From positions 1-44,916 of the forward strand of contig NZRL01000125.1 of assembly GCA_002696205.1 (NCBI GenBank): 44,916 nucleotides of DNA. Direction: 5' to 3'. The notes under the pieces are model-generated. The model was not told the DNA's origin and searched no databases. It saw only the letters and a program-made list of their open reading frames with translations. Within the stretch, counting starts at the first letter, position 1; the number at the start of each line of letters is the position of its first letter. The stretch comes from Rhodospirillaceae bacterium (GTDB lineage: Bacteria; Pseudomonadota; Alphaproteobacteria; Rhodospirillales; Casp-alpha2). Position numbers and translations under genes: made by a program. This document shows, one piece after another, positions 21,034-43,005 of the stretch.

Positions 21034-22380
21034 GTGCTACGGGAAATCCCCCGTCAGAGGGGACATTGGCTGTTGGGCAACGCGAAAGACGTGTTGCCGA
21101 ACGCGCACCAGTTCGTTGCCGGGACGGCCGCCGCCCATGGTGGATTGGCGCGGTTTCGCGCCCTTCATCGGACGCTGTACGCCACGGTGCGCCCGGAAGA
21201 CGTCCGGCACATCCTGTTCGACAACGTCGAAAACTACGTAAAGAGCTATCACTACCGGTCCACCAGCGTGATCAGCGGCTGGGGACTTCTGTTCATCGAT
21301 GGAAATCTGTGGCGTCGGCGCCGCCGGATGATTCAGCCCGGGTTCAGGCGGGCTTCCTTGCGGCCCATTGCGGAGATCGCGGCGCGGGAAAGCGCCGCCG
21401 TCATCGACGACTGGCCGACCCGTCAAGGAAACGACGGTGCGATCGAGGTGGTCGCCGATCTGCGCACCATTGCGTTGCGGACGATCACGCGGGCGTTGCT
21501 CGGGATCGGGCTGGACGGTGAAAAGGCCGACCGCTTCGGGGAGGCCGTTTCCGGGGCCTTGAAGGTGCTCGGCCGGCGCAACAACGGTGTTGCCTGGCCA
21601 TTTTGGATGCCGACGGCGGACAACCGGGCGCTCCATGACACGAGGGCCGCGCTTGACGACTTCCTGATGGACCAAATTCGCGCGCGGCGGGCGGCCTTGG
21701 CGGCAAACGAGGAAACCCCCGGCGGTATCTTGGAAAGCTATATCGGGGATCCCGAACTTTCCGACCAGAACGTATTGGACGAGACCAAGACTCTGTTCAC
21801 CGCAGGCTTCGAGACGGCGGCAACCGCGCTGGCCTGGTCGCTGGGGCTGCTGGCGGATCACCCGGAAGTCGCCGAAGCCTGCGAAGCCGAAGTCGACCGC
21901 GTGTTGAACGGCCGTCTCGCGACCTTCGACGACCTGATTAATCTGCCGACGATCACGGCCGTGGCCGAGGAGACCCTGCGCCTGTTCCCGCCGATCACGC
22001 AGGTCGGGCGCGAAAGCCTGGCCGAGGACGATCTGGGCGGGTATCGCCTGCCCAAGGGCTCGACGATCTTGATATCCATGTACGGGATTCAGCGCTCGCC
22101 GGAGTTGTGGGACGCGCCCGAGGCTTTTCGCCCCGAGCGTTTCGCGCCCGAGCGCCGGGATGCGATCCCCGAAGTCGCCTATTTCCCCTTCGGCGCCGGG
22201 CGCCGGACCTGCATCGGGAATAATTTTGCCCTACAGGAGCAGACGGCTATCCTGGCAACGATCCTTCAACGATATCGCCTGGCAATGCCGCCTGGGACGG
22301 AGATGCGCGAATCTCTGCGCGTAACCTTGCAACCCGGCTCGGCACTGCCGATCCGGGTAACCCTGCGGAAGGCCGCATGA
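21034..22380 (+). CDS. Cytochrome P450
   Basis: This is a 448-residue soluble bacterial P450 with no N-terminal anchor. The heme-binding signature FPFGAGRRTCIG places the Cys ligand at 393. The ExxR motif is E313-R316 in EETLRLFPP. The I-helix AGFET gives the acid-alcohol pair E260-T261. Start is GTG at 21034 after GAGGA, with no good ATG nearby; the N-terminal text IPRQRGHWLLGNAKD fits the usual P450 beginning. Its stop overlaps the start of the FAAL-ACP-synthase gene (ATGA, 22377-22380), so it belongs to that pathway. It most likely hydroxylates or desaturates the fatty acyl chain or the amino-ketone product. The redox partners are not in the window, and the substrate cannot be read from sequence. 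Confidence 0.93.
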   Translation: MLREIPRQRGHWLLGNAKDVLPNAHQFVAGTAAAHGGLARFRALHRTLYATVRPEDVRHILFDNVENYVKSYHYRSTSVISGWGLLFIDGNLWRRRRRMIQPGFRRASLRPIAEIAARESAAVIDDWPTRQGNDGAIEVVADLRTIALRTITRALLGIGLDGEKADRFGEAVSGALKVLGRRNNGVAWPFWMPTADNRALHDTRAALDDFLMDQIRARRAALAANEETPGGILESYIGDPELSDQNVLDETKTLFTAGFETAATALAWSLGLLADHPEVAEACEAEVDRVLNGRLATFDDLINLPTITAVAEETLRLFPPITQVGRESLAEDDLGGYRLPKGSTILISMYGIQRSPELWDAPEAFRPERFAPERRDAIPEVAYFPFGAGRRTCIGNNFALQEQTAILATILQRYRLAMPPGTEMRESLRVTLQPGSALPIRVTLRKAA

Positions 22381-25300
22381 ATAACTTTTCATCCCCGACA
22401 CCGGTCGAATTTCTGCCTGACATCCTGCACTGGCGGGCGAAAACCACGCCTGACAAAACAGCGTTCGTTTTCCTGAACGGGGACTTGGACGAAACGGCGC
22501 GGCTGAGTTACGCGGCCTTCGACCGGCAGGTCGAGACCGTTGCCGCGGCTCTGCGGAACCGTGTCGCGCCGGGCGACCGGGCACTTTTGCTATATCCCAC
22601 GGGGCCCGAATTCGTGGTCGCGTTTTTTGCCTGCCTGAAAACCGGCGTCATCGCCGTGCCCTGTCCGCCGCTTCGGCGCAACCGGGACCTGGATCGTATT
22701 GCCGCGATTGCCGCCGACTCCCGGCCGTCGCTGGTTTTGACGACGCAACAAGGCAATGCGGCACGGTCCCAGGACGCTGCCCAGTCGCAGACCTGGGGAG
22801 CGGAAGTTCCCTGGCTGGAAACCGATGGCCTGTCCGCTGGCCCCGGATCGGATACGCCCATGTGCGCGGTCGATCAGGACACCGCCGCCTTTCTGCAATA
22901 CACCTCCGGTTCGACCGGGCATCCCAAGGGCGTGACCATCAGCCACCGCAATCTCATGCACAACGAAGCCCTGATCGGCGAGGCCTTCGCGATCACGTCG
23001 GCGGATGTGTCCTTGGGATGGTTGCCGCATTTTCACGATATGGGGTTGATCGGAACGCTGCTGCATCCCGTGGTCGCCGGAATCCCGGCCTACGTCATGG
23101 CGCCCGCCGATGTCCTGCGCCGCCCGATGGTCTGGCTCGAAGCGATCTCCCGCTTCGGCGCCACGGTCAGCGGCGGGCCGAACTTCATTTACGACTACTG
23201 TGCGCGGAAGGCGCCCGCCGATCTCGGCGGCATCGATCTGTCGCAATGGCGGCTTGCCTTCAACGGGGCGGAGCCGGTCCGTCCGGCAAGCCTGGATCAT
23301 TTCGCCGAGACCTTCGCGCCCGCAGGGTTTTCCGCGCGAAGCTTCTACCCATGTTATGGCCTGGCCGAGGCGACTCTGATCGTCACCGGGCCCACAGCCG
23401 GTGACGGGGCCGGGCGCGGCAATTTTTCCCGCGCTAAGCTCGAGACGGGGAAGGCCGTTGCGACGGAAGGCCTCGGCGGCGAGGCCCAGGTGGGTCTGGT
23501 GTCCTGCGGCCGTCCGGTCGGCGGGCAGACCGTCACGATCGTCGACCCGGACAGCGGGAATTGCCGCGCCGACGGCGATGTCGGGGAAATCTGGGTCTCC
23601 GGGCCGAGCGTCGCGCGCGGCTATTGGAATCAGGACGACGAAAGTGCGGAGACCTTCACCGCATCGACTGCAGATGGCCTGGCCGGACCGGCACTGCGCA
23701 CCGGCGATCTCGGTTTTGTTCACGACGGCGAATTGTTCGTCACCGGGCGTCTGAAGGATCTGATCATCCTGCGCGGGCGGAACATCTATCCGCAAGATAT
23801 CGAAACGGCGATGTCGATCGCCCATGACGCATGTCAGCTGGATGGCGCGGCCGCCATTGCCGTCGACGACGGGGTGGAGGAACGCCTTGTCGTGCTGCAG
23901 GAAATTCGCCGTGACCGGATGCGCGGCCTTGATGCGCCGTCGGTGATGAATGCGATCCGCCGGGTTTTGTCGGAACAGTTCGAAGTCCAGCCGGCGGCGA
24001 TCCAATTGCTGCCGCCCCATGCGCTTCCGCGAACCTCCAGCGGCAAGCTGCGCCGTGGGAAATGCAGCGCCCTTTATGCGGCGGGCGAATTAAAGTCCCT
24101 GGCCCGTGAGGAACTGGCGCCGGAAACGTCCGATGCGACCGCGAGCATCGCCGACCCGGCGATTGTCGCCGACCTGTCGGTGATCCTCGGCGATGTGCTG
24201 CGGCGCCCCGTGGAGTCCATCGGGGCCGATTTGAGCCTCAGCGAGTTCGGTATCGACTCGCTCGGCGTTTTGGAACTGTCCCATGAAATCGAAAGCCGGT
24301 TTGGCGTGACCATTCCGCCGTCGGAAGAGTTCCTCGAGAAGTCTCTCGAGGAACTGGCCGGTATCCTGGGTAATCAGGACAGCCTGAACACCGGCGCGGA
24401 TGACGCGCAGGACCCGGCGCCCAGTGCGACCGTCGATCTGTTCGACAAATGTCACGGCGACGGCGGGTATTTCGGCTACTACCGCAAGGCCGGAGACAAA
24501 TACTACTCGCAGCCGGTTCTGGAGGGCGAGCCGGGACCGGACATGACGTTCGGCGGCGTGCCGCAGATCGTCTGGTCGATCAACAATTACCTGGGCCTTT
24601 GCGGCGATCCGCGCCTGACCGAGACGGCGCAGGCAGCAGTCGACACTTACGGTTCCTGGGCGCCCATGGGCTCACGCATGCTGACCGGCAATACGGACCG
24701 CCATCAGGAACTGGAAGACCGCCTTGCCCGCATGCTGGGTAAGGAAGCGTCGGTCGTCTTCAACTACGGCTACATGGGGGTCATGGGAACCATGGCGTCC
24801 TTGGTCGGTGACGCGGATCAGATCGTCATCGACAGCTTGTGCCACGCCTGCATCGTCGACGGCGCCCATCTGGCGTCGAAGGACCGGCCGTTCCGCGTGT
24901 TCCGTCACAACGACCTGGACAGCCTGGAAGACCAATTGCGCCAGGCCAACCGCAACCGCCGGGGCGGCGTCATGGTTGTCACCGAAGGCGTTTATGGAAT
25001 GAGCGGCGACATCGCCCCGTTGCCCGAGATCATCGCCTTGAAGGACCGCTACGGCGCGCGCCTGTTCGTCGACGATGCCCACGGGTTCGGCATCATGGGC
25101 AAGACCGGCGCCGGATTGGGCGAGCACCAGGGGTGTATGGACGGCATCGATCTGTATTTCGGCACCTTCGCCAAGAGCTTCGTCGGCATCGGCGGGTTCA
25201 CGGCAGGCGACGCCGCCGTGACGGATTACATTCGCTACAATTCTCGGCCCAATGTCTTCGCCAAAAGCCTGCCGCTGATCTACGTGGAGACAGCGCATCG

Positions 25301-25646
25301 CGTGCTCGACATCATGGCGGCCGAACCGGAGCGTCTCAGCCGAGCTTGGGACGTCGCGGCGCGCCTGCAGACCGGTTTGCGGGATCTCGGCTTCGATCTG
25401 GGCAATACGGAATCGGTGATTACGCCGGTCTATATCGAAGCGGGCAACGAGGAAGCGGCCCGCGACGTCGTTCGCTTCATGCGCGAAAAGGAAGGCATTT
25501 TCCTCTCCGCTGTCACTTATCCGGTGGTGCCGCGCGGGGTCGTGCTGTTGCGCATGACGCCCACGGCGGCGCATACCTTCGATCATGTGGACCGCACGCT
25601 GGCGGCGTTCGAACGCCTGCGCGCCCATTTGCAGGGCGCATCGTGA
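22377..25646 (+). CDS. Trifunctional FAAL-ACP-alpha-oxoamine synthase
   Basis: This is a 1089-residue fusion. Residues 1 to about 575 are a fatty acyl-AMP ligase: the ATP loop TSGSTGHPKG starts near 176, and GWLPHFHDMGLIGTLLHP is typical of FAALs, which hand acyl-AMP to an ACP rather than to CoA. Residues about 590-665 are a carrier domain with the phosphopantetheine Ser628 in FGIDSLG. Residues about 690-1085 are a PLP-dependent alpha-oxoamine synthase of the KAPA synthase/serine palmitoyltransferase/ALAS family, with FVDDAHGFG and the Schiff-base lysine K933 in TFAKSF. Family knowledge predicts loading of a fatty acid on the ACP and decarboxylative condensation with an amino acid to give a long-chain amino ketone. 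Which amino acid is used cannot be read. The gene overlaps P450 by 4 bases and is followed by an SDR that could reduce the ketone. Confidence 0.93.
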   Translation: MNNFSSPTPVEFLPDILHWRAKTTPDKTAFVFLNGDLDETARLSYAAFDRQVETVAAALRNRVAPGDRALLLYPTGPEFVVAFFACLKTGVIAVPCPPLRRNRDLDRIAAIAADSRPSLVLTTQQGNAARSQDAAQSQTWGAEVPWLETDGLSAGPGSDTPMCAVDQDTAAFLQYTSGSTGHPKGVTISHRNLMHNEALIGEAFAITSADVSLGWLPHFHDMGLIGTLLHPVVAGIPAYVMAPADVLRRPMVWLEAISRFGATVSGGPNFIYDYCARKAPADLGGIDLSQWRLAFNGAEPVRPASLDHFAETFAPAGFSARSFYPCYGLAEATLIVTGPTAGDGAGRGNFSRAKLETGKAVATEGLGGEAQVGLVSCGRPVGGQTVTIVDPDSGNCRADGDVGEIWVSGPSVARGYWNQDDESAETFTASTADGLAGPALRTGDLGFVHDGELFVTGRLKDLIILRGRNIYPQDIETAMSIAHDACQLDGAAAIAVDDGVEERLVVLQEIRRDRMRGLDAPSVMNAIRRVLSEQFEVQPAAIQLLPPHALPRTSSGKLRRGKCSALYAAGELKSLAREELAPETSDATASIADPAIVADLSVILGDVLRRPVESIGADLSLSEFGIDSLGVLELSHEIESRFGVTIPPSEEFLEKSLEELAGILGNQDSLNTGADDAQDPAPSATVDLFDKCHGDGGYFGYYRKAGDKYYSQPVLEGEPGPDMTFGGVPQIVWSINNYLGLCGDPRLTETAQAAVDTYGSWAPMGSRMLTGNTDRHQELEDRLARMLGKEASVVFNYGYMGVMGTMASLVGDADQIVIDSLCHACIVDGAHLASKDRPFRVFRHNDLDSLEDQLRQANRNRRGGVMVVTEGVYGMSGDIAPLPEIIALKDRYGARLFVDDAHGFGIMGKTGAGLGEHQGCMDGIDLYFGTFAKSFVGIGGFTAGDAAVTDYIRYNSRPNVFAKSLPLIYVETAHRVLDIMAAEPERLSRAWDVAARLQTGLRDLGFDLGNTESVITPVYIEAGNEEAARDVVRFMREKEGIFLSAVTYPVVPRGVVLLRMTPTAAHTFDHVDRTLAAFERLRAHLQGAS

Positions 25647-25671
25647 CACACCGCAAGCGACAAGGACCGTC

Positions 25672-26448
25672 ATGCCCCGCGCCCTGGTAACCGGGGCGGC
25701 GAGGGGGATCGGCCGGGCCGTGGCCGAAGCCCTGCGGGACGCGGGATACGAAGTCATCGGAACCTCCCGCGATCCGGCGGGCATCACGGACCCGCCCTCA
25801 GGGGTGCGGTTCCTGCCGCTCGATCTTGCGAACGGAGACAGCATTGCGGCTTGCGCGGACCAGGCGGGTCAACTCGATCTTTTGGTCAACAACGCCGGGT
25901 TCAGTCAGGCCGGGCCCTTGTGCGAGACGCCCTGGCCGGAAATCGAGGACCTGATTACGACGAACTGGACCGGCGTGATCCGGCTGACCCGGGCGGTGAT
26001 GCCGGGAATGGCGCAGGGCGGGCGGATCATCACGGTCGGGTCGCTCGCGGGCCGCATTCCCTTGCCCTATGTCGCCGTCTACGCCGGTTTGAAAGGCGGT
26101 CTGGAATCCTTCACCAAGGCCCTGCGTCTGGAACTGGCGCCGCTCGGCGGCACGGCCTGTATCGTCGAACCGGGCTTCGTGAAGACCGACATCCGCCAGG
26201 ACCTGTTCGTCGATCCCGCTTCGCCCCATGCGGAACGGGTCGCCCGCGTCCGCGCCTTCCGGGCCGAAAGCATGGCGCGGGCCGCCGGACCGGAAGAGGT
26301 CGCCGCCGCGGTGTTGAAGGCCGCGCAATCGCCGAACCCCAAGGCCGTTTGGGTGGCGGGGCGGGGTGCGCGCCTGTTCAATGTGCTGTCGCGGGTTCTG
26401 CCCGCCGGAATGTTCGAGCGCGCCTATCGCCGCAAGTTGGGGATTTAG
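25672..26448 (+). CDS. Short-chain dehydrogenase/reductase (SDR)
   Basis: This is a 258-residue classical SDR. The start is ATG 25672 with AAGGA five bases upstream, 25 bases after the synthase stop; the frame extends upstream but overlaps the synthase without SDR sequence. The cofactor loop TGAARGIG lies near the N-terminus, NNAG follows, and the catalytic pair is Y137-K141 (YAGLK). VEPGFVKTDI follows as usual. By position it is the natural candidate to reduce the 3-keto group formed by the alpha-oxoamine synthase to an alcohol, as 3-ketosphinganine reductases do in sphingolipid synthesis. This is inferred from context. The VOC gene starts 11 bases after its stop. Confidence 0.9.
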   Translation: MPRALVTGAARGIGRAVAEALRDAGYEVIGTSRDPAGITDPPSGVRFLPLDLANGDSIAACADQAGQLDLLVNNAGFSQAGPLCETPWPEIEDLITTNWTGVIRLTRAVMPGMAQGGRIITVGSLAGRIPLPYVAVYAGLKGGLESFTKALRLELAPLGGTACIVEPGFVKTDIRQDLFVDPASPHAERVARVRAFRAESMARAAGPEEVAAAVLKAAQSPNPKAVWVAGRGARLFNVLSRVLPAGMFERAYRRKLGI

Positions 26449-26459
26449 GGGCTGCCGCG

Positions 26460-27527
26460 ATGAATACAGCCCCCACATTCATTTCCGGCATTCAGCAAGT
26501 CGGGGTCGGCGTCCCCGCGCTGGATGACGCTTGGCGGCTGTACCGCCGGGCGTTCGGGTTCGACGTGCCGGTGCTGCGCGATGCCGGCACGGCTGAGGTG
26601 ATGACCCCCTATACAGGCGGCCGGGTGGAAAGCCGGGATGCCGTGATCGCGCTGAACGACCGGGGCGGCGGCGGCCTGGAAGTTTGGCAGTACACGTCGC
26701 GGCCCTGCGTGGCGCCCGCGACGCGGCCGATGGTCGGGGACCTGGGTGTTATGGCGATCCGTCTGAATTCACCCGATCCGGCCGTCAGCCTGGACCATTG
26801 CAGGGCCCTGGGCCTGACGACCTTCGGACCGTACGAGGCCCCCGATGGTGCGACGCAGGGTTGGGCCGTCGATCCCATGGACAACCTGTTTCAGTTCGTC
26901 CGGTCCGACGATTGTTTCCGGCCCCGCAAATTTCATTGCGGCGGGATCGCGGGCGTGATGATCGGCGTGTCGGACATCGATGCCGCGCGGCGTTTTTACG
27001 GCGGCATCCTGGGCTACGATCAAACCGTCTATGACCGAGAGGGACATTTCACCGATCTTACGGACCTGCCCGGCGGGAGTGGAGCGTTCCGCCGTGTTCT
27101 CCTGTCCCGGGATGAAGCACCGAAGGGCCCCTTCGCCCGGTTGCTTGGCCGCTCCCGGATCGAACTGATCCAATGTTTGGACCGGTCGCCGACACCGATT
27201 TTCGCGGGGCGCCAATGGGGGGATCGGGGTTTCATTCATCTCTGCTTCGATGTCGTCGGCATGAACGCGCTGCTCGACCGGTTCGCAGGCGCCGGGCATC
27301 CGGTGCGTGTCCGCAGCGACGACAATTTCGAAATGGGCGAAGCCGCCGGCGCGTTCGCCTATGTGGAAGATCCGGACGGCACATTGATCGAACTGGTCGA
27401 AACGCGGCGTCTGCCGATTCTGAAAGCCGTCGGCTGGTCCCTGGACCTGACCCGGCGCGACCGGGCCAAGCCAATCGCCGATTGGATGTTGAAGGCGATG
27501 GCGCTCGGGCGGGTGCGGGACCGCTGA
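26460..27527 (+). CDS. Two-domain VOC (glyoxalase/extradiol-dioxygenase fold) protein
   Basis: This is 355 residues starting at ATG 26460; the longer open frame upstream is a shadow of the SDR gene. Four beta-alpha-beta-beta-beta modules are visible. Modules 1 and 2 (about 5-155) contain GIQQVGVGVPALDDAWRLY and AVDPMDNLFQFV. Modules 3 and 4 (about 160-320) contain GVMIGVSDIDAARRFYGGIL, RIELIQC, FIHLCFDV and EDPDGTLIELVET. The C-terminal domain keeps His and Glu at positions that are metal ligands in this superfamily, whereas the N-terminal half lacks the usual first His, so probably only the C-terminal half is catalytic. VOC proteins range from dioxygenases to isomerases and resistance proteins, so the reaction is unknown. 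It is the last gene of the P450 operon and may tailor or protect against the product. Confidence 0.75.
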   Translation: MNTAPTFISGIQQVGVGVPALDDAWRLYRRAFGFDVPVLRDAGTAEVMTPYTGGRVESRDAVIALNDRGGGGLEVWQYTSRPCVAPATRPMVGDLGVMAIRLNSPDPAVSLDHCRALGLTTFGPYEAPDGATQGWAVDPMDNLFQFVRSDDCFRPRKFHCGGIAGVMIGVSDIDAARRFYGGILGYDQTVYDREGHFTDLTDLPGGSGAFRRVLLSRDEAPKGPFARLLGRSRIELIQCLDRSPTPIFAGRQWGDRGFIHLCFDVVGMNALLDRFAGAGHPVRVRSDDNFEMGEAAGAFAYVEDPDGTLIELVETRRLPILKAVGWSLDLTRRDRAKPIADWMLKAMALGRVRDR

Positions 27528-27542
27528 GCGACGGGTCGTCGC
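27528..27542. terminator. Short hairpin between convergent operons
   Basis: GCGACG-GGT-CGTCGC forms a perfect 6-bp stem with a 3-base loop directly after the VOC stop codon and just before the end of the convergent membrane fusion protein gene. There is no T-run on either side, so it may be a weak bidirectional terminator or only a chance structure in a 21-base gap. Confidence 0.35.
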
Positions 27543-27548
27543 CGCCGG

Positions 27549-28595
27549 TTACTCCGTTGCGGCTTGGATCACCCGGTCACCGGACCGGACCCGGTACACG
27601 CCGTCCGTGAGTACCCAGCGGTAGCCGTCCGGCACTCCGTCCAGAACCGCGCGTTCGCCGCTGATCAATGCGACCTTGACCGCCAGACGCTCCGCCGTGC
27701 CCGGGAGGTCGCGGGCCAGGTAGATGATCGCCTTGCCGTCGCCGAGATTGTGCAAGGCGTTGACGGGAACCACCGTTCCACGCCGGGCGCCGTCCGGGCG
27801 CGGCAACCGCGCGCTGGCGCGGATACCCGCACGCAGGCGCGGATCCGTTCCGGAAAGTTCAAGCCGGACCTTGAAGAACCCATCCGAAGCTTCCGCAATC
27901 CCGGCGACCGAGCGGACCGTTGCCGGAAGCCGGAGGTCGGGCAGGGAGGGGAAGCGCACCAAGGCTTCATCGCCCACGGAAAGGCCGCTGATGTCGCTTT
28001 CCGGCACGTTCAGGTCGATCAGCCAGGGGTCATCGTCGGCGCGCAGGGCAAAGACCGGCGTTTCCGGCGTTACCCATTGCGGGTGATCGAAATAACGGCG
28101 GGTGATGACGCCGGCGGCGGGGCTGGTCAGCACGTGATGTTTCTTGTGAATGATCGCTTCGGCCAATTGCGCGCGGTTCAGATCGCGGGCGTTGCGGGCG
28201 TCGTCCAGATTGGTCTGCGACACCACGCCCTGACGGCGAAGCTTTTCGGATCGTCCCAGGTCCGTCTCGCTTTGCCGAAGTTCGACGCGGCGCTGATCGA
28301 CGGTCGCGGAGATCACGCTGTCGTCCAGGCGGCCAAGGCGTTGGCCGGCTTCGATGCGCTGTCCTTCCTCGGCATCGAACGACAGCAAGGTTCCCGATTC
28401 CTTGAAGTACAGCTTGCGCGGCAGGTCCTGCAGCGTGCCGTGGGCGGCGAAGGTGGCAATCACGCGTTCCACGACCAGCGGCTGGGCCGTGACGGGCGTT
28501 CCGGCGGGCTCCTGGGCGCGCGTTGAAGCCATCGTTGCCGTCAGGACGAGGGCGCTCAGGGCGGAAATCAGCGGAAGGGAGAGTAGGGATCGCAT
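27549..28595 (-). CDS. RND efflux membrane fusion protein (HlyD/AcrA family)
   Basis: This is 348 residues with an N-terminal Sec signal (SALSALVLTATMASTRA) and no lipobox Cys, so it is periplasmic rather than a lipoprotein. The order is a lipoyl/barrel half with LLSFDAEEGQRIEAGQRLGRLDD, a short helical hairpin (RVELRQSETDLGRSEKLRRQ), the second lipoyl half (TSPAAGVITRRYF), then beta-barrel and membrane-proximal domains. It starts 2 bases after the stop of the RND permease and so is the second gene of that operon. It links the pump to an outer-membrane channel. No TolC-like gene is in the window, so the channel must be encoded elsewhere. Confidence 0.9.
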   Translation of the reverse strand: MRSLLSLPLISALSALVLTATMASTRAQEPAGTPVTAQPLVVERVIATFAAHGTLQDLPRKLYFKESGTLLSFDAEEGQRIEAGQRLGRLDDSVISATVDQRRVELRQSETDLGRSEKLRRQGVVSQTNLDDARNARDLNRAQLAEAIIHKKHHVLTSPAAGVITRRYFDHPQWVTPETPVFALRADDDPWLIDLNVPESDISGLSVGDEALVRFPSLPDLRLPATVRSVAGIAEASDGFFKVRLELSGTDPRLRAGIRASARLPRPDGARRGTVVPVNALHNLGDGKAIIYLARDLPGTAERLAVKVALISGERAVLDGVPDGYRWVLTDGVYRVRSGDRVIQAATE

Positions 28596-28597
28596 GT

Positions 28598-31500
28598 CTA
28601 TCGCCGCGTCAGAATGGAATAGAGGACGGGAACCAGCAGCAAGATCAACACAGTGGATGAAGCGAGTCCACCGGCGATCACGGTCGCCATGCCCCGAAAC
28701 GGGCTGTCGCCGACGGCGACGGGCAGCAGCCCCAGAGTCGTCGTCAGGGAGGTCAGGACAACCGGCATGAAGCGGCGGACCGCAGCCTCGACCGCGATCT
28801 CGCTGATCGGCTTGTCGGGTTCTTCCGTCCGTATCGCGTTCGCTTCATCGACCAGAAGGATCGAATCGTTGACCACGATCCCCATCAGGCTCGCCAACCC
28901 CAGGGCCGCGATGAACGAGAGGTATTGTCCGCTGAGCGCGATGGCCAACGCCGCGCCGACCGCGCAGAAGGGGATGGCGGAGAAGACGATCAAAGGCTGG
29001 ATAAGCGAGCGGAACTGCAGCACGAAGATGGTGAAGATGATCCCGGCCGCGAACCCGGCGAACTTGCCCAGGTCCGCGTAATCCTGCGTCAGTGTCTCCA
29101 GTTTGCCGCCGATCCGCATGTCGGCGCCGGGCGGCAACGGCTTGGTCGCCATCTTTTTCAGCAGGGCGTCGCCGAAGGCATGGGCATCGGCGCCAGCCCG
29201 CAACCAGAATTGAACCTCCACCGTCGGCCGGAAATCCAGGTGGTCGATTTGGGCCCGGCTGCCGCCCAGGTGAATCCGGGCAACGTCCGACAGGGCAAGC
29301 CGTTCGCCGTTGTCCCGCGTGAGCACCAGGCCGTCCGTGGGAACGAAGGGCGCGCCTTCGTCGCGCGCGACTTTCAATCGGATGGGGGTTTCCTCGCCCC
29401 GTTCATCGCGGAGATGGCCGACCTCCTGGCCGAACGACAGCATGGTCAGGGCCTGCGAGATTTCAGATCGCGAGACGCCCCGCGCGGCCATCGCGCCGTC
29501 GTCCAATTCGACCTGCATGGCGATGTCCTTGAACTCCGCCGGATTGCTGATCCGGGTCAGGTCGGGATGGCCCCCGATGCTGTCGCGGATGTCTTCGGCA
29601 TAGGCGACCAAGGCGTCATGGTCCGGCCCCGCGATGATCAAGGACAGATCGGACTTGCGCGGCCCGGCGCGGGCGGGATCGAACGGCGAGACGGAGATCG
29701 CCCCGAAAACCCGGTACGGATCGAGCGCCTGCGACAGACTGTCGGCAAGACCCAGGAGATGGCTTTCCGTGGCCGAATTCGTGCGCACCAGGAACACGGG
29801 ATCGCCGTCGCTGTCCATGCCGACGTTGACGGTCGGTGCGGAAATCCCGCTGAACGCAAAGACGTTGATGATGCCTTCGTGGGCACGCAGCGTCGCTTCG
29901 ATTTTCTCCAAGGCGTCGGCCCGGGCCTCGGGCCCGGCGTTGCGCGGCATGGCGACGTTGACGGTCAAGTAGGGGTCGTCACTCGGCGGCATCAGTTTGA
30001 CCGGCACGTCCTTGACGACGAAACCGGTGCCGATGAAGGCCGCGACGAACAGGCCGACGACCAGTGCGCGATGGTTCACGCCCCAGGTCAGGAATCGCCG
30101 GAAATGGTCGTCGCGATAGGGGATCATCGCGGTCAGCAGGCTGCGCGGCGTCGGCAGCCAGCGGATCTTATCCAACGTGCCGAACATCGACAGCAGCAAG
30201 ACGATCACCGTGCAGGCGACGAACAGCGAACACAGCAGGTTGATCCAGATGGTCGCCGAAAGACTGCGCAGGTAAAGACCGGAGGGCGAGGTCAGAAAGA
30301 AAATCGGCGCGAAGGCGACCATGGTCGTCAGGGTCGAGGATAGCAGCGGCGAAAAGGCGTCGTCCGCCCCCTGAACCGCCGCATCGACCCGCGACATGCC
30401 GCGGTATCGCTCCCGCAGGAAGGCGTTCTCCGTCACGACGATGCCGTTGTCGACGATCATGCCGAGCGCGATGATGAACCCGGCCATCGAAACCTGCTGC
30501 ACGCCGTAGTCGGTGAAGGACAGGACCGACATGGACGCCAGGAAACTGAGCGGCAGCAGGGTCATGATGATGAGGGTCGATCGCGCCTCGACCGTGAAAT
30601 AGAAGATCACGAACAGGACGATCGCCGTCAGGGCGAAGGAATCGACCAGCGATTCGACCAGACGCCAGACCTCGTCGCTTTGATTGTAGACGACCTCCAG
30701 GGTGACGCCGTCGGGCAATTGCGCGCGGACCTGGTCGAGAACCTCGGTCAGCTTGTCGTTGACCTTGAAGATATTGATGTCCGGTTCGGCTGTGGCCTTC
30801 ACCATGGTCACGGGCTTGCCGTCGACATGGACGAACACGGGTTGGTGTTCGGCGACGACCTCGACGGTGGCGATATCGGCCAGGCGGAAGGCATGGCCTT
30901 CGGCGGTGTGCAGAAGGATGTCGTTCAGATCAACCGGGTCTGCGAGCGCCGCCTGGGGCGGCTGGATGCTGTAGTAACGCCCGTCGACGACGACCCGGCG
31001 GCCTGGCAGGTTGGTGTTGGCGCTTTCGATCTCGGACGCGATCCGTGACAAGGGAACGCCGTAGCGATTGGCCTTGTCCAGATCGACGACGATGGAAATC
31101 TCCTCGTCCGCCCGCATCAATTCGACCTTCTTGAGTTCCGGCAGCGCCTGCAGGCGGGCCTCCAGCCCGCGTGCCTGGGCGAATACCAAATCGGCGTCCG
31201 CGGTGCCGCCCATGGCGACCATGAACGAGGTCTGAAAATCCGAAACACGCACGGCTTTCAGGCTGTATTCCAAAGAGTCCGGCAGCTTGAAGCGAATGCC
31301 GTTGATTGCCGATTCCATATCCTGGCGTTTGAGCGAGACATCGACGCCGTAGCGGAATTCGGCCCGGATATGGGCGCGGCCGCTTTCGATCTTGCTGTCG
31401 ATCCGGTCCAGGTCGGCGAGGGACCGGAGTTCGTCCTCGATGGGAAAGATCACGGTGCGCTGGATTTCGCCGGGGGATGCCCCGGGCAGCAACAGATTCA

Positions 31501-31642
31501 CGGAGACGACGGGGATCGCATAATCCGGATCGCGGCTGATCGTGGCATTGTCCATGGCGATCAGGCCGTAGACGATGATGATCAGCGCCGCCATGGCGGA
31601 AAAATGCCGATTGTGCGCGATGAAATAGAAAAGTTTATGCAT
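28598..31642 (-). CDS. RND efflux permease (AcrB/HAE1 superfamily)
   Basis: About 1014 residues with the RND layout: one N-terminal membrane helix, a large periplasmic loop, six helices, a second loop and five helices. I place the start at ATG 31642 (MHKLFYFIAHNRHF) because the first helix follows directly. The open frame to 31711 adds a 23-residue tail without ribosome site. TM4 contains IIALGMIVDNGIVVTEN, with D398-N399 where AcrB has the Asp pair. The C-terminal half has SLMGIVVNDSILLVDEANA in place of the AcrB Lys segment. The differing proton-relay residues place it in a branch apart from AcrB, nearer to divergent HAE1 pumps, some of which move lipids. It is divergent from the acyltransferase gene and convergent with the P450 operon, which suggests export of the amino-lipid product. 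Confidence 0.9.
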   Translation of the reverse strand: MHKLFYFIAHNRHFSAMAALIIIVYGLIAMDNATISRDPDYAIPVVSVNLLLPGASPGEIQRTVIFPIEDELRSLADLDRIDSKIESGRAHIRAEFRYGVDVSLKRQDMESAINGIRFKLPDSLEYSLKAVRVSDFQTSFMVAMGGTADADLVFAQARGLEARLQALPELKKVELMRADEEISIVVDLDKANRYGVPLSRIASEIESANTNLPGRRVVVDGRYYSIQPPQAALADPVDLNDILLHTAEGHAFRLADIATVEVVAEHQPVFVHVDGKPVTMVKATAEPDINIFKVNDKLTEVLDQVRAQLPDGVTLEVVYNQSDEVWRLVESLVDSFALTAIVLFVIFYFTVEARSTLIIMTLLPLSFLASMSVLSFTDYGVQQVSMAGFIIALGMIVDNGIVVTENAFLRERYRGMSRVDAAVQGADDAFSPLLSSTLTTMVAFAPIFFLTSPSGLYLRSLSATIWINLLCSLFVACTVIVLLLSMFGTLDKIRWLPTPRSLLTAMIPYRDDHFRRFLTWGVNHRALVVGLFVAAFIGTGFVVKDVPVKLMPPSDDPYLTVNVAMPRNAGPEARADALEKIEATLRAHEGIINVFAFSGISAPTVNVGMDSDGDPVFLVRTNSATESHLLGLADSLSQALDPYRVFGAISVSPFDPARAGPRKSDLSLIIAGPDHDALVAYAEDIRDSIGGHPDLTRISNPAEFKDIAMQVELDDGAMAARGVSRSEISQALTMLSFGQEVGHLRDERGEETPIRLKVARDEGAPFVPTDGLVLTRDNGERLALSDVARIHLGGSRAQIDHLDFRPTVEVQFWLRAGADAHAFGDALLKKMATKPLPPGADMRIGGKLETLTQDYADLGKFAGFAAGIIFTIFVLQFRSLIQPLIVFSAIPFCAVGAALAIALSGQYLSFIAALGLASLMGIVVNDSILLVDEANAIRTEEPDKPISEIAVEAAVRRFMPVVLTSLTTTLGLLPVAVGDSPFRGMATVIAGGLASSTVLILLLVPVLYSILTRR

Positions 31643-31715
31643 TTGGCTGGTCTGCTGCCGCCTTTCCCCCGGCGCGATCATCGGCACGGCCGTCGCCGGG
31701 CGTCCGATCAATTAT

Positions 31716-31737
31716 CTGCCTTTTCCCCATGGGGCAG
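31716..31737. promoter_or_regulatory. Palindromic site in the RND pump/acyltransferase divergent promoter
   Basis: CCCCATGGGG (31725-31734) is a perfect palindrome, flanked by CTGCC and GGCAG. It lies between the divergently transcribed RND permease and acyltransferase genes, where a shared operator would be expected. No regulator gene is next to it. It is a candidate operator only. Confidence 0.3.
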
Positions 31738-31865
31738 AATGCGCTGCGGGTGGGGCAAGTTCAAGTATGACGAGAACGACTTTTCCTGTGAATCGAATTC
31801 ACCGGATGGTACGAGAGTCTTTACACTTCAATCGTTTACCCGAAATTCTGCCGAAAGTCCCGCGC

Positions 31866-32732
31866 ATGGCGCCTGCCCCTAGATTTCAAACCGAGCCCTG
31901 GCCCCCCGTGCGGAACCTCGTATTGGACGTGCTGGCCCAGCATCGGCCTCATACGGTCTACGGTTTCGGCGAGGCGGATGTCACCGAGACGCTGGAAAAA
32001 TTGCGCCGGTTCAGCCGGGCCGCGGGTGTCGCGGTGTCGCTTAATGCCTTTGTGGCGTATTGCATCGTGCAGGCGGCGGTGCGCCATCCCGAGGTGCTGA
32101 CCCATCGCAAAGGGCGCAAGTTGATCCGTTTCGAAGATGTCGATCTGGGAACCTTGATGGATCGGCGCGTCGCCAACGGCGCATTGGTGCCGACGGGATG
32201 TATCCTCCGGCGCGCGCAGGAAAAGTCGCTGGCCGAGTTGAATTGGCAATTCCGTGAGGCGACGAAGCGGGGCTTCGATCTGGACCCGTCCCGTGCCTGG
32301 ATGCAGCGCCTGGCCCGCATGCCGGGCTTCGTGCACCGGGCCGTGGTCTGGTTCCTCAATCGTAATCCGATTTCGAAGGCGCGCCTGCACGGCACCATCG
32401 GCCTGACCAGCCTGAACAGGGCGAGCGTCGGATGGCGATACCACGCCCTGCCGCCGAACCCGCATACCTGTTCGATAGCCTTGGGCGGAATTTACGAACA
32501 GGCGGACCCCGCCGGTGGTGCGGCCCGGCGCATGCTGGCGGTCTCCATCGGGTTGGATCACGCGGTCCTTGACGGTATTCCCATGGTTCAGTTCTCGGAA
32601 ACCTTGGGCCGGCTGATTGAGGGCGGCGCGGGACTGGATGAACGTTTCGTTGAGCAAACGAAGGAACTGAAAGAAAGCGGGGGCGCCGGCAATTTAGAGA
32701 CGGATGGCGCCGGGGAGAGACGTGAGCGGTGA
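31866..32732 (+). CDS. Lipoyl-less 2-oxoacid dehydrogenase E2-type (CAT-fold) acyltransferase
   Basis: This is 288 residues from ATG 31866. The frame is open from ATG 31767, but bases 31767-31865 are AT-rich with codon use unlike the rest, so I treat them as promoter region. The protein matches the catalytic core of E2 acyltransferases/chloramphenicol acetyltransferase: SLNAFVAYCIVQAAVRHPE near the start, GTIGLTSLNRASVGW in the middle and the active-site HxxxDG as DHAVLDG near the C-terminus. It lacks the lipoyl and E3-binding domains of real E2 subunits, and no E1 or E3 gene is nearby, so a role in pyruvate metabolism is unlikely. I infer acyl transfer, for example N- or O-acylation of the amino-lipid made next door. 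Divergent placement against the RND pump supports membership in that locus. Confidence 0.75.
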   Translation: MAPAPRFQTEPWPPVRNLVLDVLAQHRPHTVYGFGEADVTETLEKLRRFSRAAGVAVSLNAFVAYCIVQAAVRHPEVLTHRKGRKLIRFEDVDLGTLMDRRVANGALVPTGCILRRAQEKSLAELNWQFREATKRGFDLDPSRAWMQRLARMPGFVHRAVVWFLNRNPISKARLHGTIGLTSLNRASVGWRYHALPPNPHTCSIALGGIYEQADPAGGAARRMLAVSIGLDHAVLDGIPMVQFSETLGRLIEGGAGLDERFVEQTKELKESGGAGNLETDGAGERRER

Positions 32733-33213: not shown

Positions 33214-34032
33214 TCATTGACGGGAGAACGGTCGTGCGTCCGGGCCATCGAAAGTCCAGATCATCTCCTTGGGCAGCGGACCTTTGTTGCGGCCGCCTTG
33301 ACGGCTCTGTTCCCAGGCGTGGGCTAGGATGCCGACGGAGCGGGATAGGCAAAACAGTCCTCTGGCGAGCGGCGGCGCGAAGCCGAGTTCCGCGTAGATA
33401 ACCGCCGTTGCGCCATCGATGTTCATGGGGATGCGCTTCCCCTTGGTTTCGAAAAGATACGTCTCGATGGACCGTGCGACCTTTGCGAACGCGCCGGAAA
33501 CGATGCCGTCGGCAACGGCGGCATCGACCAGTTCCAGCAATCTCGGCGCGCGCGGGTCGATCGGATGGAAACGGTGCCCGAAGCCGGGCACGAACTTGTT
33601 ACCGGCGGCGATGAAGACATCGAGGGTTTGCTTGATCGCGGCATCGAGCGCGAGGCCGTCGTCGGCCTTTGCACGTACGGCGGCATAGAATTCGACGGCT
33701 TGTTCGCCGGCGCCGCCATGAACGTCCCCGAGGACGTTCACGGCCGAAGCGACGGCATTATTCAGGCCTACGCCGCAGGTCATTGCCATGCGGGCGATGG
33801 CGATGCTGGGGGCTTGCGGCCCGTGATCCACGCCTGAGACCAGAGCGGCTTCCAGCAAGGCGGCTTGTCCGGACGTCGGAAGCTCGCCCCGGAGCATCAG
33901 CCAGATCATTTCGACGAAGCCGACGTTGCCGGTCAGTTCCTCGATGGCATAGCCGCGGAAGCGAATGCTGCCCGGCGACATCTCGATAATCTCTGTACGC
34001 CACCAATCTTCGGCTTTTTGGCTCTGGCTCAT
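33214..34032 (-). CDS. Citrate synthase-fold citryl-CoA lyase-like protein
   Basis: This is 272 residues, much shorter than citrate synthase (about 430) and matching the short citryl-CoA-lyase-like branch. The catalytic positions are recognisable: H105 in GDVHGGAGE, H153/H156 in GFGHRFHPIDPR and D206 in NIDGATAV, corresponding to the His-His-Asp set of citrate synthases. The C-terminus (HAWEQSRQGG to KEMIWTFDGP) looks complete. ATG at 34032 has AAGGA upstream. It follows dctM by 49 bases and is the last gene of the TRAP operon, just before the IS fragment. Family knowledge suggests cleavage (or formation) of a citryl-CoA-type thioester to acetyl-CoA plus an oxoacid. I infer that it splits the CoA ester made from the imported acid. 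The exact substrate (citryl-, citramalyl- or other CoA) is not determined. Confidence 0.7.
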   Translation of the reverse strand: MSQSQKAEDWWRTEIIEMSPGSIRFRGYAIEELTGNVGFVEMIWLMLRGELPTSGQAALLEAALVSGVDHGPQAPSIAIARMAMTCGVGLNNAVASAVNVLGDVHGGAGEQAVEFYAAVRAKADDGLALDAAIKQTLDVFIAAGNKFVPGFGHRFHPIDPRAPRLLELVDAAVADGIVSGAFAKVARSIETYLFETKGKRIPMNIDGATAVIYAELGFAPPLARGLFCLSRSVGILAHAWEQSRQGGRNKGPLPKEMIWTFDGPDARPFSRQ

Positions 34033-34081
34033 GTCATTTCCTTTTTCGTGGGTCGTGCCGCAGGTTGTAACAAAGACGGCA

Positions 34082-35353
34082 CTACAAGATACGAACCAGA
34101 TCCATCGCGAGTCCGGGCCAGAAGTAGAGGACGAACACGGTGGTCAGCATCATGACGATGAACGGGATGACGCCTCTCGATACCTCGCCGAGCGTTGATT
34201 TCCCGACCGCCTGCATGATGAACAGGTTCAGGCCCACCGGCGGCGTGATCAGCGCGCATTCGACCATGATCACGAACACGATGCCGAACCAGATGGGGTC
34301 GATCCCCATGGCGAGCAGGGATGGGTAGAGCACCGGCATCATGATCAGCAGCATGCCGAGGGCTTCGAGAAAAAGCCCCATGAACAGGAGAACGACGCAG
34401 ATGGCGAGGGTGAAGCTCCAGGGCTCGGAAAAACTCGCGGTGACGAGATTCGAAACGCTGACCGGGATCTGATACAGGGTGATCGCCTTGGCGAAAATCT
34501 TGGCGCCGGCGATGATAAGCAGGATGGTCACCGTCGTCCGCATGGAGTCCATGCAGGCATCCTTTAGGCGCTGCAGCGTCATCGTCCGGAACACGAGGGT
34601 GATGACGATGGCTAGGAACAAGCCGACACCGGCGGCCTCGGTCGGCGTGAAAATACCGAGATAGATCCCGAGAATGATGACGACGGCGATGAACATCGTC
34701 GGAAACGCCGCCAGGGTCGCTTTCACGCGTGCCGGCCAAGACGCACGCTCGACGTTTTCGAAGTCGCCTTTGTAACGGGCATACACGATCGAATACGCGG
34801 AAAACAGCAAGACCAGGAAGATGCCCGGGCCGATGCCGGCGATGAACAGATCGATGATCGATTCCTCCGTGATGACACCATAGACGATCATGACGATGGA
34901 GGGCGGAATCAGGATGCCGAGCGTGCCGCCGGCGGCGAGTAGCCCAAGCACGAATTTCTTCGGATCCCCGCGGGCCGTCATTTCCGGGACGGCGATGGTT
35001 CCGATTGTGGCGGCGGTCGCCACCGACGAGCCGGAGATCGCCGCGAACAGGCCGCAGGAAATGATGGTCGCGACGCCGAGACCGCCCGGCCAGTGGCCGA
35101 CCCACGATTGCGCGGCGGCGAACAACTGCTGGCCGGCCCCGCATTTGAGCAGGATGTTCGACATCAGCAGGAACAGCGGGATGGCCAGCAGCACGAAGTT
35201 GTCGATGCTGGAATAGAGGGATTGCGGCACCATGATCAGGTTGAAGTCCTGGATCATGAAAAGAGCCAGGCCCAATCCGCCCAACGCGAACGCGACGGGG
35301 ATGCCGAGGAGCAGCAGCGCCAGCAGAGCGGCGAGAATGAGAAATGCAGTCAT
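34082..35353 (-). CDS. dctM: TRAP transporter large permease subunit DctM
   Basis: This is 423 residues with about 12 predicted membrane helices, starting MTAFLILAALLALLLLGIPVAF. Conserved DctM text includes AIPLFLLMSNILLKCG, SGSSVATAATIGTIAVPEM and GTLGILIPPSIVMIVYGV. It forms the sodium-driven transport channel together with DctQ, and the periplasmic DctP delivers the substrate. The gene starts 18 bases after the dctQ stop, so the two are co-transcribed. Substrates of this family are organic acids, including C4-dicarboxylates, keto acids and aromatic acids. Confidence 0.95.
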   Translation of the reverse strand: MTAFLILAALLALLLLGIPVAFALGGLGLALFMIQDFNLIMVPQSLYSSIDNFVLLAIPLFLLMSNILLKCGAGQQLFAAAQSWVGHWPGGLGVATIISCGLFAAISGSSVATAATIGTIAVPEMTARGDPKKFVLGLLAAGGTLGILIPPSIVMIVYGVITEESIIDLFIAGIGPGIFLVLLFSAYSIVYARYKGDFENVERASWPARVKATLAAFPTMFIAVVIILGIYLGIFTPTEAAGVGLFLAIVITLVFRTMTLQRLKDACMDSMRTTVTILLIIAGAKIFAKAITLYQIPVSVSNLVTASFSEPWSFTLAICVVLLFMGLFLEALGMLLIMMPVLYPSLLAMGIDPIWFGIVFVIMVECALITPPVGLNLFIMQAVGKSTLGEVSRGVIPFIVMMLTTVFVLYFWPGLAMDLVRIL

Positions 35354-35371
35354 TTGATATTATCCCTTTTC

Positions 35372-35878
35372 TCAGACTTGCTCTGTTTCGGCATGGGCGC
35401 GCGGTTTTTCGCCACGCAATACGCGGATGAGATCGACGGCCGCCTGCAAGGCGAGAAGCGCGAAGCCGATGGGGACGGCGGCCTCGGTCAGCACCCGGGG
35501 AACCTGGTTCATGGTGTCGGTGGTGCGGCCGATGCGCTGGCTTTCCATGGCAATGTCGAGCCCATAGGAGCAAGCGATCCAGGAGAACCAGATAATGAAC
35601 AGAAGGGTGATCGCCTCGGCGACACGCTGCAGACGTTCGGGAAGTAGCAGAACAATGGCGGAAACGCGAATAAGGCCCTGGTCCCTGAGGATAAAGGCGG
35701 CGCCAAGGAACGTCGCCCACAACTGCAACATCCGCGATCCTTCCTCGGCCCAGGAAGTCGGCGCGTTGAAGAGATATCGGGCAATGACCTCGTAAGACAA
35801 CATCAGCCCGATCAGCAGGAAAAGGAACGCGGCCAGCGCTCCGAACACGCCGCTGATGCGATCGACAAACCTGAACAT
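35372..35878 (-). CDS. dctQ: TRAP transporter small permease subunit DctQ
   Basis: About 168 residues with four membrane helices. I choose ATG 35878 (MFRFVDRISG) because GGGAG lies directly upstream; the frame is open to 35890. The family motif YEVIARYLFNAPTSWAEE is present after the first helix, followed by the typical GAAFILRDQGLIRVSAIVLL. It sits between dctP and dctM and is preceded by a terminator-like hairpin after dctP, so it is probably expressed at a lower level than the binding protein. Confidence 0.93.
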   Translation of the reverse strand: MFRFVDRISGVFGALAAFLFLLIGLMLSYEVIARYLFNAPTSWAEEGSRMLQLWATFLGAAFILRDQGLIRVSAIVLLLPERLQRVAEAITLLFIIWFSWIACSYGLDIAMESQRIGRTTDTMNQVPRVLTEAAVPIGFALLALQAAVDLIRVLRGEKPRAHAETEQV

Positions 35879-35917
35879 TCGCTCCCCCAATGAGTGAATT
35901 GTTATAATGAGATAAAG

Positions 35918-35943
35918 AGGAGGCCCATTCGAGCGGGCCTCCT
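35918..35943 (-). terminator. Hairpin after dctP (partial terminator between dctP and dctQM)
   Basis: AGGAGGCCC and GGGCCTCCT form a perfect 9-bp stem around an 8-base loop, 25 bases after the dctP stop. On the minus strand it is followed by CTTTATCT, a weak U-tract. Attenuation after the binding-protein gene is common in TRAP and ABC operons, giving excess DctP over the membrane subunits. Confidence 0.75.
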
Positions 35944-35967
35944 AATAGTCTTTGATATGGACGTTGG

Positions 35968-36999: not shown

Positions 37000-37187
37000 T
37001 CCCTGTTCCCCAAGGCGGGGAAATGTTGTGCGTCCGAAGTCCGTGCCGGTTGCCGTCGGCTTGGCGATCTTGTCCACGCGCATCTTTGCCATGCCGCGAA
37101 GAGCGGTTATGACGAAGATGCTGGCCGCATCAAAACTGGTGCATGGCGTGGATTTACAGGATGGAAGCCTCAACCAATCACAAAAAC

Positions 37188-37199
37188 GGAACGTATTCC
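37188..37199. promoter_or_regulatory. Candidate IclR-type operator upstream of dctP
   Basis: GGAACGTATTCC has the form GGAA-N4-TTCC and lies in the 370-base region between dctP and iclR, about 190 bases before the dctP start. The same GGAA-N4-TTCC pattern appears upstream of iclR, and it resembles the TGGAAAT-ATTTCCA type sites known for IclR-family proteins. The rest of this intergenic region must hold the dctP promoter, but I could not assign convincing -35 and -10 boxes. Confidence 0.45.
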
Positions 37200-37371
37200 A
37201 TTTTTATGCTCTCATAGTCTCTCATTCATTGCAACGGTTTTGTCATGACAGCATGCGGCCGTGCGCGGCGGGCCCTCGGAAGGGGCACGTCGCGTCGGGG
37301 ATGCGGCAATGGGCGAGCGGGGCGGAACCCTACGCCGGGCGCCGCAGTCGAAGATGGGCGAGGGAAGCGGC

Positions 37372-38100: not shown

Positions 38101-38122
38101 TGGATATAAACCGTCTAGCGAA

Positions 38123-38156
38123 TGGAATAAGTTCCGAACTGATTAATCTTATTCCG
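38123..38156. promoter_or_regulatory. Candidate IclR operator upstream of iclR
   Basis: TGGAATAAGTTCC (38123-38135) contains GGAA-TAAG-TTCC, and a further half-site CTTATTCC lies at 38148-38155, giving the inverted pair GGAATAAG...CTTATTCC. It starts 22 bases upstream of the TTG start, suggesting autoregulation. The block GTCTAG followed by GGAATAAG is shared with the CoA-transferase/SDR divergent promoter. Confidence 0.5.
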
Positions 38157-38242
38157 CGAGCGTGTCCAGGTTTTGTCCCTCTCTTTCTCCGGCGAACGGC
38201 TTCACTGTCATGAATACGGGCTGCCGCTGGGCGCCGGAATCG

Positions 38243-39349: not shown

Positions 39350-39392
39350 GGCGGTTCCTCTCTTTTTGTTTTGAATGGCAGCGGCGGTTTCG

Positions 39393-41977: not shown

Positions 41978-42058
41978 GGTCGTTTCCCCATTCGTTGTCG
42001 TTTCATTGGCGATGCAGGAAATAAAAGTTTGACATGCACGCGAGGGCAAACTTACAAA

Positions 42059-42097: not shown

Positions 42098-42206
42098 TAC
42101 GCTTCGCCTGTTCGAGCACGGCGGGATAGGTATCTCGTCCGGTTGGCGGAATTGAGAAACGGAAACAGGAATCGCCGGCGTCCGCCGGTTCTTTTCGGGG
42201 GAAAAA

Positions 42207-42995: not shown

Positions 42996-43005
42996 GGATG
43001 GACCG

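Follow-up and report, generated by a model that had tools for sequence, protein, structure and literature searches.

A predicted self-loading cysteate fatty acyltransferase in a gene cluster of a Rhodospirillaceae bacterium

Introduction

Which product is made by a bacterium that joins a fatty acyl-AMP ligase (FAAL), an acyl carrier protein (ACP) domain and an α-oxoamine synthase (AOS) in a single protein? This question is raised by positions 21034–32732 of a 44,916 nt stretch of DNA from Rhodospirillaceae bacterium (assembly GCA_002696205.1, contig NZRL01000125.1), which as a whole is referred to as the window. A preliminary description had seen an amino-lipid locus here, without a pathway that could be named. 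Since its AOS falls within the cysteate fatty acyltransferase (CFAT) type, that pathway can be named as sulfonolipid biosynthesis, and the term amino-lipid, correct in outline, is too general for the likely product 3-ketocapnine, a sulfonate. We consider it likely from sequence comparison that the fusion protein is a self-loading CFAT, which would catalyse the entry reaction of sulfonolipid synthesis.

Sulfonolipids resemble sphingolipids and have been studied chiefly in Bacteroidota. They were originally observed in a diatom (PMC9304779, PMC11211663) and have been linked to gliding, inflammation and choanoflagellate multicellular development; the characterised sulfonolipid enzymes of the papers reporting these links are from Bacteroidota (PMC11211663, PMC8319176). 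Roseobacters contain a different, non-capnine sulfur aminolipid (PMC8319176). The Bacteroidota capnine pathway comprises CapA/Cys, CapB/SulA/CFAT and CapC/KCR; for the Cap enzymes, PMC10191378 cites Liu 2022 and Vences-Guzman 2021.

Results

The oxoamine synthase domain

As had been proposed, ligase, carrier and AOS lie in one protein, with Pfam scores of 252 bits for AMP-binding and 136 bits for Aminotran_1_2:

22377–25646, + strand: FAAL-ACP-CFAT fusion, 1089 aa; AMP-binding at residues 18–417, PP-binding at 602–662, Aminotran_1_2 at 729–1077
22377–24116, + strand: FAAL domain, residues 1–580, of the loading-module type of nonribosomal peptide synthetases and polyketide synthases (NRPS/PKS), from structures, NCBIfam and tree
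24177–24362, + strand: acyl carrier domain (PF00550, 48 and 54.2 bits), phosphopantetheine Ser628 in a DSL motif
24429–25643, + strand: AOS domain of SulA/CapB (CFAT) type, pyridoxal phosphate (PLP) Lys933, diagnostic Lys963 (SulA Lys281)

Solved structures matched the AOS domain in 44 distinct sequences at E ≤ 1e-30. The top scores were those of cysteate-C-fatty acyltransferase 28eh, with 396 bits, and of SulA from Alistipes (7u7h), with 369 bits, whereas the best serine palmitoyltransferase (SPT) reached 253 bits. For wider comparison we used the best 80 of 572 relatives (CFAT loci in the following), which are not a census and many of which end early at contig ends. An IQ-TREE phylogeny of 31 rows, including 16 of 78 other CFAT-like loci, placed 22 CFAT-like rows together with the window among them in one clade (100/100). 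Outside it remained three rows of SPT type, four of KBL and two of other AOS enzymes; L105 and L106, both SPT-type, and three KBL rows bear these labels on account of layout and tree and not of an annotated function. Inside the clade, the window groups with two Spirochaetaceae and Legionella lytica (89/87). For an AlphaFold model of the domain, computed from an alignment of 27 rows (the window and 26 of the 80 loci; pLDDT 87.1), the four top-ranking PDB matches are all chains of Alistipes SulA (7u7h at E 1.9e-46, TMq 0.94), compared with E 3.5e-38 for SPT 3a2b.

Lys281 of SulA was put forward by its discoverers as the discriminating residue (PMC9304779). Our alignment of 93 rows has Lys at this position in the window (residue 963), in L. 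lytica, in 28eh and 7u7h and in 80 of 80 CFAT loci, the latter agreement not being independent, as these loci were chosen by similarity to the window. Ala is found in all three SPT-type rows and in one of the other AOS rows (L111), Val in L110 and Asn in all four rows of the KBL clade. Nine further SulA positions (Asn53, Gly115, Tyr116, His140, Asp217, His220, Thr248, Lys251 and Arg376) are all kept in the fusion. With high confidence we assign the AOS third of the protein, by its sequence, to the CFAT/SulA/CapB family and not to SPT, and cysteate is probably its real substrate.

The fusion could instead start a sphingolipid from serine and unite in one chain the activities of the rhodobacterial AasR/AcpR/SPT system. 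In that system, SPT is served by an ACP and an acyl-ACP synthetase of its own (PMC9386255). Among plasmid records, 238 match the fusion at E ≤ 1e-50 and 8 cover at least 80% of it; the plasmid clusters H2–H9 align with it at 79–84% coverage and are of such a layout, judged from H2 and H5, which were examined besides H1 (L. lytica) and hold separate genes for ligase, epimerase, carrier and SPT-type AOS. However, the AOS of the window lies outside the SPT rows and within the fully supported CFAT clade, its diagnostic site is Lys and not Ala, and its FAAL is split from the H2 and H5 ligases, as described below. The serine reading, which we regard as improbable, was dropped on account of the AOS tree and Lys281.

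The loading module

FAALs activate fatty acids as acyl-AMP, and a FAAL-specific insertion blocks CoA transfer. By NCBIfam and by structures, the N-terminal domain is closer to FAALs than to CoA ligases. Its best NCBIfam model is an NRPS/PKS model, the following seven are AMP ligases, and the best 25 of 115 scores all stay below the curated cut-offs. Matches to solved structures start with 'Polyketide synthase' and 'Saframycin Mx1 synthetase B', followed by FadD23 and other AMP ligases. In tblastn, the domain is 42–44% identical to FAALs in three annotated NRPS proteins and about 36% identical to the ligases encoded in the SPT-type clusters H2 and H5. A tree of 22 rows, in which 14 of 19 loci of relatives were used, separates the window and NRPS FAALs from the H2 and H5 ligases by a 100/99 branch; the L. 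lytica FAAL is found on the same side as that of the window, though not together with it (weak branches, 80/90 and 88/63). The sequences suggest that a ligase–carrier pair may have been attached to or set beside a CFAT more than once. Owing to the likeness of its FAAL-ACP part to NRPS/PKS loading modules, the fusion probably loads its own acyl group, and the domain anatomy backs the earlier proposal that a sphingoid-like amino ketone could be made without free acyl-CoA.

No other full three-domain fusion was present among the matches listed for 100 genomes including its own (at most 7 candidates each). FAAL-carrier proteins of similar length, with a C-terminal half that is not an AOS, are encoded in a genus-mate (L006 124–3561) and in an order-level relative (L005 1489–4908); this half carries an HHxxxDA motif, and we take it to be probably a condensation domain. 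Separately, a reading frame of 2140 aa at G000:C76:11924–13012 has four carrier domains in tandem, reminiscent of polyunsaturated fatty acid synthases.

Operon and neighbouring genes

The genes around the fusion are the following:

21034–22380, + strand: cytochrome P450, first gene of the operon (PF00067, 278 bits; heme motif FGAGRRTCIG)
25672–26448, + strand: short-chain dehydrogenase/reductase (SDR), candidate 3-ketocapnine reductase, with a 39% identical SDR after the AOS of L025
26460–27527, + strand: two-module protein of the vicinal oxygen chelate (VOC) superfamily (Glyoxalase, 47 bits), with a relative in L074
27549–28595, − strand: periplasmic adaptor (MFP) of a resistance-nodulation-division (RND) system, candidate exporter part (TIGR01730, 148.5 bits, cut-off 94.9)
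28598–31711, − strand: RND permease, candidate exporter (PF00873 (ACR_tran), 498 bits)
31767–32732, + strand: stand-alone E2-type acyltransferase, candidate N-acyltransferase (PF00198, 48.9 bits; HAVLDG motif)

This gene set with its families had been described before, and Pfam finds every member at or near the coordinates given then. The SDR most likely begins at 25672 and the VOC gene at 26460 and not at the longer open reading frame (ORF) starts. The translational or tight linkage of P450, SDR and VOC genes is borne out by a 4 nt overlap between P450 and fusion and by gaps of 25 nt (fusion–SDR) and 11 nt (SDR–VOC). Likewise, the pump was rightly called convergent: permease and MFP, 2 nt apart on the minus strand, face the VOC gene over 21 nt and diverge from the acyltransferase over 55 nt. 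That acyltransferase is lipoyl-less as had been stated, with neither a lipoyl nor an E3-binding domain listed by Pfam; a fold prediction for it alone (P0007) reached a pLDDT of 34 and was discarded. The SDR motifs TGAARGIG and YAGLK are intact. Promoter and terminator scans gave no signal higher than in shuffles.

Gene neighbourhoods of CFAT relatives

The best 80 CFAT loci are from Bacteroidota (77), Spirochaetota (2) and Balneolota (1). Three loci, together with one on a plasmid, have the following arrangements:

L025 1090–4456 and L026 8658–11236, Spirochaetaceae: cysteate synthase followed by CFAT-type AOS, in L025 also an overlapping SDR
L074 9995–14042, Bacteroidales: CFAT, cysteate-synthase-like gene, SDR and VOC, which is the order of the window for the shared genes
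L022 16247–19875, L. lytica plasmid: FAAL-ACP-ComA next to CFAT-type AOS and ComB homologue

Among the matches listed, the nearest AOS domains are those of L025 (60% identity) and L026 (56%), and directly upstream of both lies a gene for cysteate synthase, scoring 460 and 489 bits against the TIGR03844 cut-off of 324.9. The SDR of L025 overlaps the end of its AOS gene directly downstream. Cysteate synthase next to a CFAT-type AOS suggests, at the level of sequence, that sulfonolipids occur in Spirochaetaceae. In L074, the SDR is 25% identical to that of the window, and the VOC protein, which runs off the contig, is 38% identical over 129 aa (E 2e-27). From this operon, the VOC protein may carry out a so far unassigned step of the pathway; no match to the VOC protein of the window was found in 72,556 plasmid records (E ≤ 1e-8). 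With tblastn at E ≤ 1e-8, a FAAL was found in none of the 80 loci, an SDR in three and a relative of the L025 cysteate synthase in three, L025 itself counted.

The L. lytica plasmid pLlyPCM2298_1 encodes a CFAT-type AOS 47% identical to that of the window, followed by a FAAL-ACP fused to phosphosulfolactate synthase (ComA, 276.8 bits, cut-off 280) and then by a homologue of phosphosulfolactate phosphatase (ComB, 111.7 bits, cut-off 175). A route to a sulfonate precursor thus adjoins a CFAT, and this locus possibly represents a second way to wire sulfonate supply to sulfonolipid synthesis.

Genomic context

The host assembly of 3.78 Mb consists of 208 contigs (83.9% complete, 2.94% contamination); a search for 16S found none. 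Two genus-mates, G001 and G002, are syntenic with positions 146–20766 of the window at a nucleotide identity that is mostly about 75%, and synteny stops at the end of a giant gene:

20766–20778, no strand: left junction, end of synteny with two genus-mates (nucleotide alignment to G002)

Past this junction, no tblastn match (E ≤ 1e-5) to the later genes of the window was found in the next ~18 kb of G001 or ~35 kb of G002. Judged from this alignment, the locus is inserted relative to the two genus-mates, and the block looks newly acquired. Outside its own genome, the AOS has no match at E ≤ 1e-70 among 385 genomes sampled from the class and 398 from the phylum (at most 4 candidates per genome listed). 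Given this scarcity in the host's phylum, and with 77 of the best 80 CFAT loci in Bacteroidota, a host outside Bacteroidota is likely. Of 40 other genomes, 3 have a match to the right-flank MmgE/PrpD gene (E ≤ 1e-80), none of them among the seven genus-mates, so that the inserted stretch may extend past the cluster to the contig end. No tRNA was found in the window, nor at the corresponding junction of G001 and G002; one tRNA-Ser lies elsewhere, in L128.

A binning or assembly artefact, by which the locus would be foreign to this genome, could be suspected from the fragmented and incomplete assembly, from the confinement of the AOS to its own genome and from the absence of the MmgE/PrpD gene in genus-mates. 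However, 20 kb of synteny with two genus-mates anchor the same contig, and its left-flank secretin gene is 79% identical in both, which argues against contamination and makes an artefact highly improbable.

The RND pump and the E2-like acyltransferase could be unrelated passengers, leaving a pathway of P450, fusion, SDR and VOC only: the pump lies on the opposite strand, relatives of pump, acyltransferase and P450 are found in none of the 80 CFAT loci (0 of 3072 ORFs, E ≤ 1e-3), and the two of ten plasmid relatives of the acyltransferase that were examined both stand in unrelated contexts with nothing lipid-related; for the P450, one of 95 relatives was examined, again with no lipid-related context. 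However, pump and acyltransferase, like the fusion, occur in no other relative searched (permease in 0 of 40 other genomes at E ≤ 1e-150, a strict threshold; acyltransferase in 0 of 40 at E ≤ 1e-15), and both lie within the stretch that has no counterpart in the two genus-mates. We give the passenger explanation slightly less than an even chance, and regard it as evenly balanced whether P450, pump and acyltransferase belong to one pathway with the fusion.

Both flanks hold further genes. To the left (434–20778) lie the gene of a secretin/TPR protein and, next to it, an ORF of 6132 aa in which ricin-B lectin and DUF5648 domains recur; both are kept in the two genus-mates at mostly about 75% nucleotide identity. 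To the right (33214–44916) lie citrate-synthase-like, TRAP transporter, IclR, flavin oxidoreductase, MmgE/PrpD, CaiB, SDR and acyl-CoA dehydrogenase genes. At the right end, the CaiB and acyl-CoA dehydrogenase genes have their nearest relatives on a plasmid of Pseudorhizobium flavum, where these lie 1 kb apart, a hint at Alphaproteobacteria; the TRAP permease gene has no plasmid match at E ≤ 1e-80.

Discussion

We propose a model in which the fusion acts as a self-loading CFAT. The domains, the CFAT placement, Lys281, the linkage, seen in a few other loci, of CFAT to genes of SDR, VOC and cysteate-synthase type and the insertion of the locus can be read from the sequence; from there, we infer all reactions, the cysteate substrate and the roles of P450, pump and acyltransferase. 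The FAAL domain would convert free fatty acid and ATP to acyl-AMP and the acyl group would pass to the phosphopantetheine on Ser628 of the built-in carrier. In the PLP domain, the cysteate–PLP aldimine at Lys933 would react with the acyl group under loss of CO2, yielding 3-ketocapnine, whose ketone the SDR would reduce to capnine. The chemistry of the AOS and reductase steps is as described for these families (PMC9304779, PMC11211663, PMC10191378). The order of the remaining steps is a guess: the VOC protein may act at an additional or accessory step, N-acylation of the base may fall to the E2-like acyltransferase, hydroxylation of the chain, possibly late, to the P450, and export of the sulfonolipid product to the RND pump. 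The roles proposed earlier for pump and acyltransferase are thus still plausible ones. That all of these form a complete sulfonolipid factory outside Bacteroidota, with self-loading CFAT, VOC step, E2-fold capnine N-acyltransferase, and P450 and RND pump leading to an oxidised, exported signal, is a tentative and rather unlikely extension.

Several observations weigh against sulfonolipid synthesis by this locus. The nine SulA positions kept in the fusion are common to E. coli and Pseudomonas SPT-type rows, leaving Lys281 as the only discriminating one, and with its nearest relative at 60% identity the AOS may have shifted in amino-acid specificity. The SDR reaches 120.5 bits against a cut-off of 400 for 3-ketodihydrosphingosine reductase (KdsR), and next to the AOS of L026 no SDR is matched. 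The synthase-like gene of L074 fits a threonine synthase model best (152 bits; TIGR03844 99 bits), both below cut-off, and the VOC–CFAT link is seen in 1 of the 80 loci, with a single VOC match in their 3072 ORFs; to this adds that no relatives of P450, pump and acyltransferase were found in these loci. Concerning cysteate supply, neither a TIGR03844 cysteate synthase nor PF04029 (ComB) was found at E ≤ 0.001 in the own, 83.9% complete genome, where a CapA-type enzyme was not searched for. Its one ComA homologue has 185 bits in Pfam, but 157.6 against an equivalog cut-off of 280.

This homologue (L024 5127–5939) resides on contig C65, i.e. on another contig than the fusion, adjoining a sulfatase (choline-sulfatase model 290 bits, cut-off 433) and a large oxidoreductase, presumably of the molybdopterin type. 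As a source of cysteate, it was judged weak; cysteate could be taken up instead of made. Regarding the reductase, the corresponding genes of C. gleum and A. finegoldii are not adjacent to cfat (PMC11211663), and the SDR linkage in the window, L025 and L074 is therefore informative, but not a rule.

From part of the same evidence, one could read a CFAT-derived domain that now takes another amino acid, with P450, VOC and acyltransferase tailoring a small secreted metabolite. A FAAL-ACP of NRPS/PKS loading type, a P450 and an RND pump suggestive of a tailored and exported product, the missing cysteate synthase and the distance to the nearest AOS among the matches listed would agree with this. Against it stand the retention of Lys281 and of the general AOS residues, and the SDR and VOC genes that, in L074, come after a CFAT and a cysteate-synthase-like gene. 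We consider a changed amino acid unlikely, if somewhat less so than serine, and retain the self-loading CFAT.

Compared with the Bacteroidota capnine pathway, the window shares the AOS family, the diagnostic Lys and an SDR as next gene, and cysteate-synthase-type genes adjoin some of its relatives. It differs in that its CFAT is fused behind a FAAL-ACP, with P450, VOC, RND and E2-like acyltransferase genes alongside, and in that its genome yielded no TIGR03844 cysteate synthase. In the AasR, AcpR and SPT of Caulobacter and E. coli, a dedicated ligase and carrier likewise feed an AOS, so that no acyl-CoA is needed; however, these are separate proteins with serine as substrate, an Ala-bearing SPT-type AOS and another ligase lineage. 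The fusion looks like the in-cis counterpart of the rhodobacterial system for cysteate. In L. lytica, CFAT is paired with FAAL-ACP as in the window, but split over two genes, with the FAAL-ACP fused to phosphosulfolactate synthase and the FAAL not beside that of the window (weak branches).

The layout of AMP-binding, carrier and AOS domains itself is not new. In Table 2 of a 2013 survey, A-CP-PLP2 proteins of Microscilla marina (A1ZVW4) and Blastopirellula marina (A3ZWL3) appear with no function given there, and B1XHP8 of Synechococcus PCC 7002, an 'AMP-binding enzyme', was modelled on SPT at 42% identity (PMC3870968). A1ZVW4 and A3ZWL3 are described with the three-domain layout of the fusion. 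For phyla other than Bacteroidota, candidate sulfonolipid genes have been published before: when Cys and cfat were mapped with a cut-off of E 1e-20 across 13,362 human-associated genomes, those with both contained KCR-like enzymes in 13 phyla including Proteobacteria (PMC11211663). In our own judgement, this cut-off is loose enough to admit other AOS enzymes. In the open-access literature, judged by titles and abstract starts, we found no description of a FAAL-fused CFAT, and no report combining fatty acyl-AMP ligase and oxoamine synthase was found there. What appears new from the sequence is a CFAT-type AOS joined to its own loading module, with SDR and VOC types that recur with CFAT in one or two other loci.

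Conclusions

If the proposed model is true, a self-loading CFAT outside Bacteroidota would widen the range of organisms in which to look for sulfonolipids, and 3-ketocapnine could be made from a free fatty acid with a single-protein system. The VOC protein and the E2-type acyltransferase would become candidate enzymes of the pathway. Besides AasR/AcpR/SPT, the fusion would then represent a second acyl-CoA-free way to a sphingoid-like base.

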